DNA from: an uncultured Bacilli bacterium
Lineage (GTDB): Bacteria; Bacillota_I; Bacilli_A; RF39; UBA660
Assembly: GCA_944332635.1 (NCBI GenBank)
Contig: CALVKI010000007.1
Coordinates: 1-58,135 of the forward strand
DNA length: 58,135 nt
Direction of reading: 5' to 3'
The notes under the pieces are model-generated. The model did not search any database and was not told where the DNA came from. It saw only the letters and a program-made list of their open reading frames with translations. Positions 50,832 to 56,482 of the stretch are shown here, piece by piece (the stretch's first letter is position 1; each line of letters starts with the position of its first letter). A program made the translations under genes and the position numbers.

Positions 50832-51647
50832 ATGTTAACTAGAAAAGAAGAAATAGAGCGTAGCATAATTACTAAATTTCGTAAAGATATTTGGAGACCT
50901 TTTACAAAGGCTGTTAGAGATTATCAATTAATTCAAGAAGGTGATAAAATAGCGGTTTGTATTTCTGGGGGAAAAGATTCTATGTTGTTGGCAAAATGTA
51001 TGGAAGAGTTAAAAAAACATGGGAAAGTGCATTTTGATCTTTGCTATATTGTTATGAATCCAGGATATCGTCCTAATATATATGCACAGATATTAGAGAA
51101 TGCTCGTATTTTAGGAATTGATATAAAAGTTTTTAAGTCTAATATTTTTGATGTTGTTGACAATCTTAATTCATCTCCCTGTTACCTGTGTGCTCGTATG
51201 AGGAGAGGTTTTTTATATGCACGTGCACAGGAAATGGGGTGTAATAAAATTGCTTTAGGTCATCATTTTGATGATGTTATAGAAACTATTTTATTATCTA
51301 TTTTTTATGGTGGTGAATATAAAAGTATGCTGCCTAAATTATGGAGTAGCAATTTTGATGGAATGCAGTTAATTAGACCATTATATTTGGTGAGAGAAAA
51401 TTCTATTATTCAGTGGTCTAAGTATAATAAGTTAACATTTATTAATTGTGCTTGTAAGTTTACTGATTCTTCTATGATTGATTCTAAACGTTTAGAAATG
51501 AAACAGTTAATTCAGCAATTTGAAAATAAATACTCTAATATTGGTGCAAATATTTTTAAATCTTCAGAAAATGTTAATATAGAAACTATTTTAGGTATAA
51601 AAAAGAATGGAGAAAAAATTTCTTTTTTGGATAATTATGATAAATAA
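50832..51647 (+). CDS. ttcA: TtcA-like tRNA thiolation ATPase
   Basis: 271 residues. PP-loop SGGKDS lies at about 45-50 (IAVCISGGKDSMLLAK), and the family CYLC with ARMRRG around 117-126. GHHFDDVIETILLS follows, and a late NCACKF. TtcA proteins use a Cys-held [4Fe-4S] cluster to make 2-thiocytidine in tRNA. Related proteins modify other positions, so the base is not certain. ATG after GAGGGGAG. Confidence 0.82.
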   Translation: MLTRKEEIERSIITKFRKDIWRPFTKAVRDYQLIQEGDKIAVCISGGKDSMLLAKCMEELKKHGKVHFDLCYIVMNPGYRPNIYAQILENARILGIDIKVFKSNIFDVVDNLNSSPCYLCARMRRGFLYARAQEMGCNKIALGHHFDDVIETILLSIFYGGEYKSMLPKLWSSNFDGMQLIRPLYLVRENSIIQWSKYNKLTFINCACKFTDSSMIDSKRLEMKQLIQQFENKYSNIGANIFKSSENVNIETILGIKKNGEKISFLDNYDK

Positions 51648-51898
51648 TTATTCTTTTTTTTTATTTTATGTTATATTATTAATATAATTATTATTTGTAT
51701 ATAGGTGAATGTAAGTTGCAGTTGAAAGTTAAAAAAATATTAATATATAAAATATTTTAGTTATAGAAAATAATGTATAAAAATTTTTTTTTTTGGATAA
51801 TTATTATAAATAATTATTATTTTTTTTTATTTTATGATATATTATTAATATAATGATGATATGGAGATAGGTGAATGGAAGATGCAGTTGAAAGTCCA
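51613..51898 (+). repeat. Direct tandem duplication (~118 bases twice) between ttcA and the GH13 gene
   Basis: Copy A about 51613-51731 and copy B about 51779-51898 share the end of ttcA, its terminator, an AT-rich spacer and the start region of the next gene (AGGTGAATG... GCAGTTGAAAGT). Copy A has lost the downstream frame; copy B keeps it and adds GGAG. About 48 bases separate them. Confidence 0.75.
51629..51660 (+). terminator. ttcA terminator (first copy)
   Basis: Palindromic arms ATAATTAT (51631-51638) and ATAATTAT (51644-51651), then a T-run. A second copy of the hairpin lies at about 51797-51832 because of the duplication. Confidence 0.65.
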
Positions 51899-52792
51899 AA
51901 AACGATGCGTATTTTGCAGTGTTTAAATTGGCATTTAGATAGTATTTGTAAAGTGGCTCCAATTATTAGAGAACAAGGTTTTCAAGCTGTTCAGGTTGGC
52001 CCTTTACAACCTTTAAAAGAAAATGGATATGAACATTGGTGGATGTCTTATCAGCCGTGTGCTTTAACTATTGGTAATCAGTATGGGTCTAGAGAGGATT
52101 TTATACATTTATGTGATGTTTTACATAATGAGGGCCTATTAGTGTTTCCTGATGTTGTATGTACTCATGTTGCTGGTGCAGTTGACGGAACTTTGTGTCC
52201 ACATGAAAAAGTGGATAAAAAATTAACTGAAAATTTTGCTTTTTGGCGGGATGCTAAATTAATTGAAGATTGGGATGATAGATTTCAAGTTATACATTAT
52301 TGTGCAGGATTGCCTACTTTTGATTTAAATAATGTACATTTGCAGGATTATATTATATATTTTTTAAATGATTTTATTTGTTGTGGAGCAGATGGATTTC
52401 GTTTTGATTCTGCTAAAAGTATTCCAACACCACAAGAAGGTTGCAATTTTTTTTCTAGAGTTTTAGGAAATTTGAATGGTGAAAAACTCTTTAATTATGG
52501 TGAAGTTATTTTTGCAGATGAGAATTTGATATCTATGTATGTAGAGTATTTAAATGTTCTTACAAATACTTGGAGTAATAAAAAAAATGATGTTGTTTTA
52601 TTTTCTGAAAGTCATGATTCGTTTTTAGGCCTTGGTTATACTAGAAGTAAAAGTTCTCAACAAATTACTTCAGAATATAGTTGTTTAGTGCAACATTATT
52701 TTCAAACACTTTATTATGCACGACCTTTTGATGATGAGTGGAAGAGTTCTTCTATAAAAGAAATACATCAAAAATGTATGATGAAAAAATGA
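51875..52792 (+). CDS. GH13 alpha-amylase-family enzyme, catalytic barrel only
   Basis: 305 residues from ATG 51875, with GGAG 8 bases upstream. The barrel shows the GH13 blocks: VFPDVVCTHV, DGFRFDSAKS (nucleophile Asp), NYGEVI (acid/base Glu) and ESHDS. No signal peptide, so the enzyme is cytoplasmic and may act on glycogen-like or short glucans. It ends soon after the last block, without the usual C-terminal beta domain, and is shorter than most GH13 enzymes (about 400-500). sigG follows closely. Confidence 0.82.
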   Translation: MEDAVESPKTMRILQCLNWHLDSICKVAPIIREQGFQAVQVGPLQPLKENGYEHWWMSYQPCALTIGNQYGSREDFIHLCDVLHNEGLLVFPDVVCTHVAGAVDGTLCPHEKVDKKLTENFAFWRDAKLIEDWDDRFQVIHYCAGLPTFDLNNVHLQDYIIYFLNDFICCGADGFRFDSAKSIPTPQEGCNFFSRVLGNLNGEKLFNYGEVIFADENLISMYVEYLNVLTNTWSNKKNDVVLFSESHDSFLGLGYTRSKSSQQITSEYSCLVQHYFQTLYYARPFDDEWKSSSIKEIHQKCMMKK

Positions 52793-52845
52793 ATTGTATA
52801 AAAATGTTCTTTTCTTCTCATAAGAGAGATGAAAGGAGCTTTTTT

Positions 52846-54913: not shown

Positions 54914-54941
54914 TTGTAATTTATTTAAAATACGTTATAAT
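54914..54941 (+). promoter_or_regulatory. Promoter of the DUF1292 gene
   Basis: -35 TTGTAA (54914-54919), spacer 16, -10 TATAAT (54936-54941). AGGGAGG site before ATG 54979. Confidence 0.65.
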
Positions 54942-54978: not shown

Positions 54979-55242
54979 ATGAAAGAAAAGAAAATGATGA
55001 AGATTGTTTCAGATGATGGCTCTAGTGAAGAAGTAGAGGTTGTATTCGCTTTTGAGTTTAAAGATAATAAAAAAGAATATGTCATTTATACTAAAAATGA
55101 ACGTGATGAAGATAATAATATTACAATATATGTTTCAAATGTTGATCGTACAAATGGAGAAACTAAACTTATAGGTGTTGAATCTGAAGAAGAGTGGAAT
55201 CGTATTAAAGATGTTTTGAGAGAACTTGCTAAAAATGAATAG
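54979..55242 (+). CDS. YrzB-like small acidic protein (DUF1292)
   Basis: 87 residues, strongly acidic. Core: VVFAFEFKDNKKEYVIYTKN and ITIYVSNVDRTNGETKLIGV, ending EEEWNRIKDVL. This is the DUF1292 (YrzB) pattern. The function is unknown in the family. 14 bases separate it from the next gene. Confidence 0.85.
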   Translation: MKEKKMMKIVSDDGSSEEVEVVFAFEFKDNKKEYVIYTKNERDEDNNITIYVSNVDRTNGETKLIGVESEEEWNRIKDVLRELAKNE

Positions 55243-55256
55243 TAGGAGGATTTGCA

Positions 55257-56417
55257 ATGGATAATGTTATTTTAAAATTAGTAACCAATTTTGATGGAGT
55301 GATTATTAATCCTTCTAAAAGAATTAAGTTGAGTGAGTTGTCTGCTTCTAATGTTCGTGCTAAGCTTGATTCATTATCTCAATCAAAAATAATTTCTATT
55401 CCACTACAATATTTGGAGCAAGCAAATAAAGATAAAAGAAAAATAATTTCTATTCCACTACAATCTTTAGAACAAGCAAATCAGAGTGTAGCCATCAATA
55501 ATGGGGGACATAATACGGCTCCTTATGCTACGCAAAATCAAAGTAGTATTGTTAATGATAATATTATTTTGGGAGATTGTAGTCGATATACTAGTCAAAT
55601 TTTTACTACTGAGGGTAGCAGATTAATTCGCTTGACTGATGTTATGTATGCTAGAGTAGTTAATAATGCTGATACTTCTTCTTTTGATGATACTTTTTCG
55701 GCATTGTCAACAGAAAATATTGTGAATTCAGGAAGTACTGGTGTTAAAAAAGCTGCATATTCTAAAGCAAAGGTAGAAAAATATGGAAATGAAAAGTTGC
55801 CAACTAATATGCTTACTGATAATGGATTGTTTGATACTTTTTCTACTAGCAGTAGAGAAGTTCCTATCGTAGTTTCAGAACGCCCAGAAAAGTTTTTGTT
55901 TAATGATTTGGCTGATGTTGTTGAAACTGGAGAAAGACCGGTAGAAATGAATGAAGAGAATATTTCTTTAGATTTATTGCAGACTATTAAGAATACTTCG
56001 GGAGAAGATCTTGATATAGAGTCTCTTTTGGCTGATGTTGCAAAATTTCAAAAAGAGGAAAATGACAGTAAAAATAAAATGGCTGCTGCTAAACGAGAAT
56101 TTCAATCTAGTGCTCAACTTTTAAAAACGGCTGCTCAAAGATATAGTGATTCGAGTCAAGCTTTGGCTAATGTAACAGCTCAGGCATATGCTTATTTGGA
56201 TGAAATAAAAAATAATATAGGAAATAATATTAAAAGAACAGAAGAGTTTGCGGCTATGACTGAACAACAAAAACGAGAAGCACAAAGAATCGGAGTGGCT
56301 GCTGATAAAATTGAAGCACGTGTTCAAGAGTTTAATAATGTTCTTGCTGTTGCTCCTAATAGTAAGGAGCATGGTGAGGATAAGACTTATTCAAGAGGAT
56401 ATAATATAGCTGCTTAA
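55257..56417 (+). CDS. Unidentified protein with an internal repeat and C-terminal coiled coil
   Basis: 386 residues, AGGAGG before ATG. An N-terminal tandem repeat (IISIPLQYLEQAN, then IISIPLQSLEQAN) reflects a 54-base DNA duplication near 55387-55494. The middle part is polar and of mixed type. About 250-345 forms a coiled coil rich in Ala, Gln and Lys. No membrane helix and no signal peptide. It lies in a run of sporulation-linked genes, so it may act there, but no homology was recognised. A terminator follows. Confidence 0.75.
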   Translation: MDNVILKLVTNFDGVIINPSKRIKLSELSASNVRAKLDSLSQSKIISIPLQYLEQANKDKRKIISIPLQSLEQANQSVAINNGGHNTAPYATQNQSSIVNDNIILGDCSRYTSQIFTTEGSRLIRLTDVMYARVVNNADTSSFDDTFSALSTENIVNSGSTGVKKAAYSKAKVEKYGNEKLPTNMLTDNGLFDTFSTSSREVPIVVSERPEKFLFNDLADVVETGERPVEMNEENISLDLLQTIKNTSGEDLDIESLLADVAKFQKEENDSKNKMAAAKREFQSSAQLLKTAAQRYSDSSQALANVTAQAYAYLDEIKNNIGNNIKRTEEFAAMTEQQKREAQRIGVAADKIEARVQEFNNVLAVAPNSKEHGEDKTYSRGYNIAA

Positions 56418-56446
56418 AAGAATATATTGTTATTCTTTTTTTTTTA
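56416..56446 (+). terminator. Terminator after the 386-residue protein gene
   Basis: Stem AAAAGAATA (56416-56424) with TATTCTTTT (56431-56439), six-base loop, long T-run. It overlaps the stop codon. Confidence 0.85.
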
Positions 56447-56482
56447 ATTTTTTCATATACTTTAATTATGAAAGAGCATATA

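Follow-up and report, generated by a model that had tools for sequence, protein, structure and literature searches.

The gene at positions 55257..56417 (+ strand) of the window, by which we mean the whole stretch of 58,135 nucleotides analyzed here, encodes a 386-amino-acid protein (called X below) that we read as the longer partner of the DUF1292 protein whose gene lies just upstream, with the two genes forming one unit and X serving growing cells as a scaffold in the cytoplasm; we put the probability of this reading at roughly 0.6. The open reading frame (ORF) begins with ATG behind the ribosome-binding site AGGAGG (55244..55249, + strand), and stop-free orthologues lie at the same position in related genomes, several of which are stated to come from rumen or gut samples, so that the frame proposed in a preliminary description of this DNA (source assembly, 1.45 Mb and 71% complete) is real. 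The same description had recognized no family for the protein, and this held: no Pfam or NCBIfam model came near its cutoff, a PADLOC scan gave no match, and a PHROGs scan returned two unknown PHROGs at E values of 0.018 to 0.026 and nothing near the cutoff. As a single-protein query against the genome contigs X found no relative, and structural comparison yielded no match with a Z score of 2 or more among 4 chains; searching PDB sequences with the X profile gave 18 matches (E values of 0.06 to 1), mostly coiled-coil or helical proteins, which were taken as nonspecific. When 198 genomes of the class were searched with the X profile (E ≤ 0.01), five matched, namely, the window's own genome and four weak matches (5e-4 to 8e-3), in support of the earlier suggestion of lineage specificity. 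X is thus a real, lineage-specific protein.

The place of X is conserved together with that of DUF1292. A profile of eight orthologues located X in the same slot (YutD-DUF1292-X-YutH-NifU-S1) in 13 of the 16 genomes of the genus, including that of the window; a 14th match (G005) was rejected as another gene, and the genus match L028 and the family matches L032, L034, and L035 were dropped as other genes. Among the genus members without X, the contig of G012 ends just after yutD, and G004 and G005 have neither SigG nor X. Outside the genus, the full-length profile reached only three slot proteins (G194, G323, and G317) in 291 family genomes, and for this reason the wider X family was sought by position. 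An ORF of 331 to 669 amino acids fills the slot in 77 of the 80 named loci, themselves found through DUF1292, at a distance of -23 to 45 nt from the DUF1292 gene (median, 19 nt; window, 14 nt). An iterative N-terminal profile (E ≤ 1e-3), seeded with the 13 genus proteins, the window's X among them, joined 64 of these 77 slot proteins and none of 592 controls, which were ORFs of at least 150 amino acids from the same loci (two windows each, and some surely spurious); the 13 slot proteins missed by the profile remain in the denominator. The shared N terminus opens with a hydrophobic/acidic stretch, after which comes the approximate pattern [RK]-x-[IL]-[KR]-x(3-4)-S-x(2-3)-[IVF]. Compared as a group that had been chosen by position, 13 more distant (second-tier) slot proteins aligned to the N-terminal profile with an hhalign probability of 93% (E value, 3e-7). 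Leave-one-out profiles ranked the G133 protein (E value, 2e-4) and the G326 protein L134, which lies at another DUF1292 locus (E value, 1e-5), first of 764, while the G094 protein came sixth with a nonsignificant E value of 0.8 and many second-tier proteins behaved likewise.

The median identity of X within the genus is 24%, and that of DUF1292 is 87%, the lowest and the highest of nine genes compared. The low value, along with slot genes that look broken in pieces (77+228+77 amino acids) or oddly framed in two named metagenome-assembled genomes (L234 and L232), could be taken to mean that the coding sequence of X is decaying or free of constraint; the slot sequence of L280 also contains unknown residues. 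We disfavor this explanation and regard it as very improbable, since in the alignment of the 13 orthologues 11 columns are invariant and another 11 nearly so, the long ORF persists across nearly all of the named loci, and the promoter pattern, the terminator pattern, and the C terminus described below are all conserved.

The gene upstream of X (54979..55242, + strand) encodes 87 amino acids matching PF06949, and the product is by prediction a small folded domain of five strands and a C-terminal helix (AlphaFold2 pLDDT, 87), for which fold comparison gave no significant match and at best a weak likeness to a Tudor/SH3-like barrel (best Z score, 4.7; no Foldseek match at an E value of ≤0.001); a PDB sequence search with DUF1292 gave two matches at E values of about 0.6. 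In 12 genomes from 11 genera, sister genera among them, the domain is fused to a further sequence: it forms the N-terminal part of a single ORF of 276 to 469 amino acids in G156, G081, G142, G111, G115, G076, G080, G326, G074, and G071 and of shorter ORFs in G069 and G204 (242 and 262 amino acids). Nine of the 10 longer fusions lie, like X, beside YutD, YutH, or NifU. What follows the domain in the fusions appears by eye to be of low complexity and is not matched by the X profile, so that the homology of these tails to X rests on position and general architecture. The G080 fusion was recognized at an E value of 5e-5 but did not reach the threshold of the later locus survey, and because the weaker DUF1292 matches in the family were fetched only in part, the counts of fusions and pairs are lower bounds. 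An FtsH-like protease gene (assigned by eye) adjoins the DUF1292 fusion in L197, L297, and L299.

The pairing recurs at other DUF1292 loci. G000 carries three further DUF1292 genes, one of which is yrzB (RuvX-DUF1292-MltG), while the other two have different soluble genes (products of 346 and 302 amino acids) directly behind them, at gaps within -8 to 10 nt. Across eight genus genomes, 30 of 33 DUF1292 loci were examined; 8 were of the MltG type, and 20 of the remaining 22 had a direct downstream partner (5 X and 15 others), the exceptions being L188, where obgE stands directly next, and L182, where DUF1292 forms a 178-amino-acid ORF. At loci of neither the MltG nor the X type, then, a soluble and often heptad-rich gene lies directly downstream in 15 of 17 cases, one of them (L140) counted by manual reading because the scripted count missed its start. 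Besides DUF1292, Pfam found only subthreshold matches in the other partners and the fusions (TPR_1, E value of 0.003; Rho_N, E value of 3e-5 and 24.2 against 24.9 bits). Other contigs of G000 and G009 (L201, L202, and L203) hold more DUF1292-partner pairs, placed, by eye, before an obgE-like gene, after cysteine desulfurase-like and thioredoxin-like genes, and with a 1,071-amino-acid partner. DUF1292 was present in 92 of 110 sampled class genomes, as a single match in 74 of the 79 matched genomes outside the window's family and as at least two matches in 10 of the 13 sampled genomes within it. Of 12 stretches from outside the family, 7 had DUF1292 linked to RuvX, 2 had it after another gene with an ORF of 694 to 699 amino acids more than 100 nt downstream, and 3 (L289, L293, and L294) yielded no DUF1292 ORF by profile; none of the 12 had an X-like gene directly after DUF1292.

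These data bear on the possibility that X and DUF1292 are merely cotranscribed neighbors, with incidental fusions and noninteracting partners. The partner families are unlike one another across DUF1292 loci and the fusions lie beyond the reach of the X profile, both of which would fit such a situation; against it, the fusions recur in 11 genera and mostly at the same locus, the adjacency is repeated at most other DUF1292 loci, and the most and the least conserved genes of the locus stay together. We consider mere cotranscription doubtful. Adjacency, fusions, and repeated pairing argue instead that X works with DUF1292.

In an AlphaFold2 model built from 24 sequences, 188 of the 386 residues have a pLDDT below 50. 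X is predicted to be a soluble protein that is disordered over most of its length and that carries a structured motif near the N terminus, several conserved short motifs, and a single C-terminal helix of 115 residues. In order along the + strand, these are (i) the conserved N-terminal motif (K/R-x-I-K...S) at residues 21 to 43 (55317..55385), identified with the N-terminal profile, with a helix at residues 27 to 43 and a pLDDT of 83 to 85 over residues 21 to 40; (ii) a disordered linker with an in-frame tandem repeat (55385..55481); (iii) the short motif IRLTDVMY at residues 124 to 131 (55626..55649), with a predicted helix at residues 128 to 138; (iv) the basic motif VKKAAYSKAKVEKY at residues 163 to 176 (55743..55784); (v) the motifs LPTNM..LF and REVPIVVSER at residues 181 to 209 (55797..55883); and (vi) a single long helix, presumably a coiled coil, at residues 251 to 365 (56007..56351; pLDDT of 93 to 98 over residues 261 to 360). 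Motifs (iii) to (v) were recognized by conservation within the genus, and the conserved columns, judged by eye, cluster as short motifs inside the low-confidence arm.

The 54-base in-frame tandem repeat reported previously was borne out by self-comparison: the 43 nt at 55385-55427 recur at 55439-55481 with 93% identity, and over the full unit of 18 codons 43 of 54 nt are identical. This best 43-nt self-match within X, with 40 identities, exceeds the maximum of 29 reached in 100 codon shuffles, although Tandem Repeats Finder at its default score did not list the repeat. The repeat is a duplication of part of the linker. Elsewhere in the window, a 166-bp unit is present twice in tandem at 51568-51902; the copies, which are 86% alike, span the 3' end of an ORF (50832-51647) and the spacer that follows.

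A long coiled coil had also been proposed. AlphaFold2 predicts one helix at residues 251 to 365; on a homemade heptad score the window's X, at 0.54, falls just under the 95th percentile of the controls (0.56), a value exceeded by 51 of the 77 slot proteins and by 13 of 19 genus DUF1292 partners. Against the suggested envelope role, X contains no membrane segment or signal, and its maximum 19-residue hydropathy is 0.75. At its C terminus, X ends in Ala-Ala (56409..56414, + strand), and AA or VA is the ending of 11 of the 13 proteins of the genus; among the 592 control ORFs, 6 end in A, and VA, AA, or LA does not occur as an ending. Outside the genus, K or R endings predominate and (A/V)A endings are in the minority; K or R is the last residue of 46 of 76 slot proteins (L242, which runs off its contig, was excluded from this count). 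The (A/V)A ending resembles the SsrA tag that is read by ClpX. A search of the window for tRNA and tmRNA genes found none and hence no SsrA tag there for comparison.

The surroundings of X invite a different explanation, in which it belongs to the spore, as a coat or forespore scaffold that is specific to the lineage and is produced in sporulation. The preliminary description had placed the gene in a sporulation run, and sigG (NF006071, 381 bits against a cutoff of 372, though below the TIGR02850 cutoff), ylmC/ymxH (TIGR02888, 64 against 44), yunB (TIGR02832, 140 against 112), yutD (PF06265, 65 against 25), and DUF1292 (PF06949, 41.5 against 24) all scored above family cutoffs; the YutH neighbor gave only a weak TIGR02905 match (43.5 bits against 215). 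SigG is present in 71 of the 80 named loci, X is missing from two SigG-less members of the genus (G004 and G005), and spore coats often contain coiled-coil scaffolds.

The regulatory patterns point elsewhere. A SigA-type promoter pattern, TTGTAA-N16-TATAAT (54914..54941, + strand), precedes DUF1292-X and recurs in the corresponding position, between yutD and DUF1292, as TTGTA[AT]-N16-TATAAT at 12 of the 13 loci of the genus, the window's included; in L215, the -35 element would fall inside yutD. A single match of this kind is weak (42 such patterns in the region against 37 expected in shuffles), and a 9-of-12 match occurs upstream of DUF1292 in 52 of 80 regions compared with 22 in shuffles. 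Behind X, in the gap before yutH, lies an intrinsic terminator pattern, an A/T-rich hairpin with a T run (56416..56445, + strand), which, searched for with a lax pattern of our own, is present at all 13 loci of the genus and at 44 of 76 overall (the window plus 75 loci, two contig-end loci having been dropped) against 2.8 in shuffles; a stricter terminator scan of the region gave none. A SigG-type promoter had been proposed as a check: a SigG/F-type box stands before sigG in 20 of 70 loci, above the 0.85 expected from shuffles, and shows a smaller enrichment before DUF1292 (4 of 79; shuffles, 0.95), where other SigG, SigE, and SigK patterns occur in 3, 1, and 0 of 80 regions (shuffles, 0.96, 0.44, and 0.14). 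Flanked by a SigA-type promoter pattern and a terminator pattern, and with the SigG/F box mainly at sigG, the DUF1292-X pair reads as a separate vegetative transcription unit among sporulation genes. Inspection by eye showed, upstream of sigG (about 52755-52845), an element G[AT]ATA...CATAA[GA]A typical of SigF/SigG promoters at about 11 of the 13 loci of the genus. Before yutH (56418-56468), again by eye, about 10 of these 13 loci have a CATA-type box some 13 nt ahead of the ATG, with no clear ribosome-binding site, suggesting that the yutH transcript may be leaderless and of the SigE/K type.

Genomes without the sporulation markers tell in the same direction. Among 116 family genomes, judged on the two markers SigG and SpoIVA, a SigG-like sequence (E ≤ 1e-60) was found in 94 and a SpoIVA match in 100 (94 above the cutoff), and 13 genomes, which are drafts, had neither. 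Nine of these (G071, G074, G076, G080, G094, G096, G133, G162, and G326) keep a DUF1292-partner pair or fusion at YutD/NifU, and in two, G133 and G326 (the latter a draft with 8% contamination, its match lying at another DUF1292 locus), an X-type N terminus is supported by profile. Of the remaining four (G020, G119, G139, and G152), G020 has a DUF1292 copy that is cut by the contig end; the lack of SigG in G152 and G162 was deduced from their absence in the SigG listing, and G152 has an 18-bit scrap of SpoIVA. In related orders, sporulation has been described as lost repeatedly (PMC10868615). The preliminary description had named presence in relatives lacking all sporulation genes as its refuting condition; on these two markers, nine genomes point to it for the pair or fusion, and G004 and G005 go the other way. 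Since the two SigG-less genus members also lack X, a spore role is conceivable in this clade; as the family-wide function of the X family it is unlikely, and we likewise judge it unlikely that X itself is a spore protein.

A partnership of X with DUF1292 in growing cells accommodates these observations. The pair is conserved in place; X would oligomerize through its C-terminal helix and, by its motifs, hold DUF1292 and client proteins, binding that is suggested by the fusions and the adjacency, and would so act as a scaffold in the cytoplasm during growth. In the genus of X, the C-terminal (A/V)A may mark the protein for turnover by an AAA+ protease. A conserved folded head combined with a fast-evolving, disordered, helix-tipped tail is a common build of scaffolds and adaptors, and it is by analogy with this build that we infer such a role. 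More tentatively, and as a possibility that we would not favor at present, DUF1292 may be a portable adaptor domain, duplicated in this family of Bacilli, with each copy served by its own fast-evolving scaffold; X would then be one scaffold of a multicopy, growth-phase assembly system, fused or two-gene, whose control, at least in this genus, is by proteolysis from the C terminus.

Within the literature searched, we found no function for DUF1292 and no link between DUF1292 and coiled-coil proteins, DUF1292 was absent from the passages retrieved from the main text of PMC8528326, and no mention of the DUF1292-X pairing was encountered. Together with the naturally occurring fusions, the pairing supplies a testable partner for DUF1292 and so a handle on a domain that is widespread in Bacilli, and X points to a set of paired DUF1292-partner genes. 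These findings also counsel caution, in that a function is not safely assigned from an adjoining sporulation cluster where two transcription programs seem to be interleaved.

Among known systems, the YrzB-type DUF1292 proteins (PF06949; order RuvX-DUF1292(-MltG)) share the same small domain and occur in the window's genome as well, whereas the extra DUF1292 copies of the family are paired with or fused to long partners. The YutH/CotS-like spore kinase (TIGR02905), found in 61 of 80 loci, is encoded after X in many of them, but it lies behind the terminator pattern and has no sequence relation to X in family scans. The AA/VA ending of X and most of its genus orthologues resembles an SsrA-type C-terminal degron; as a putative degron it differs in being encoded rather than added by tmRNA, and outside the genus it is a minority ending. 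Coiled-coil scaffolds with disordered arms exist in general, and X is like them in joining a disordered, motif-bearing arm to one long helix; it belongs to no recognized family and is set apart from them by its N-terminal motif and its pairing with DUF1292.
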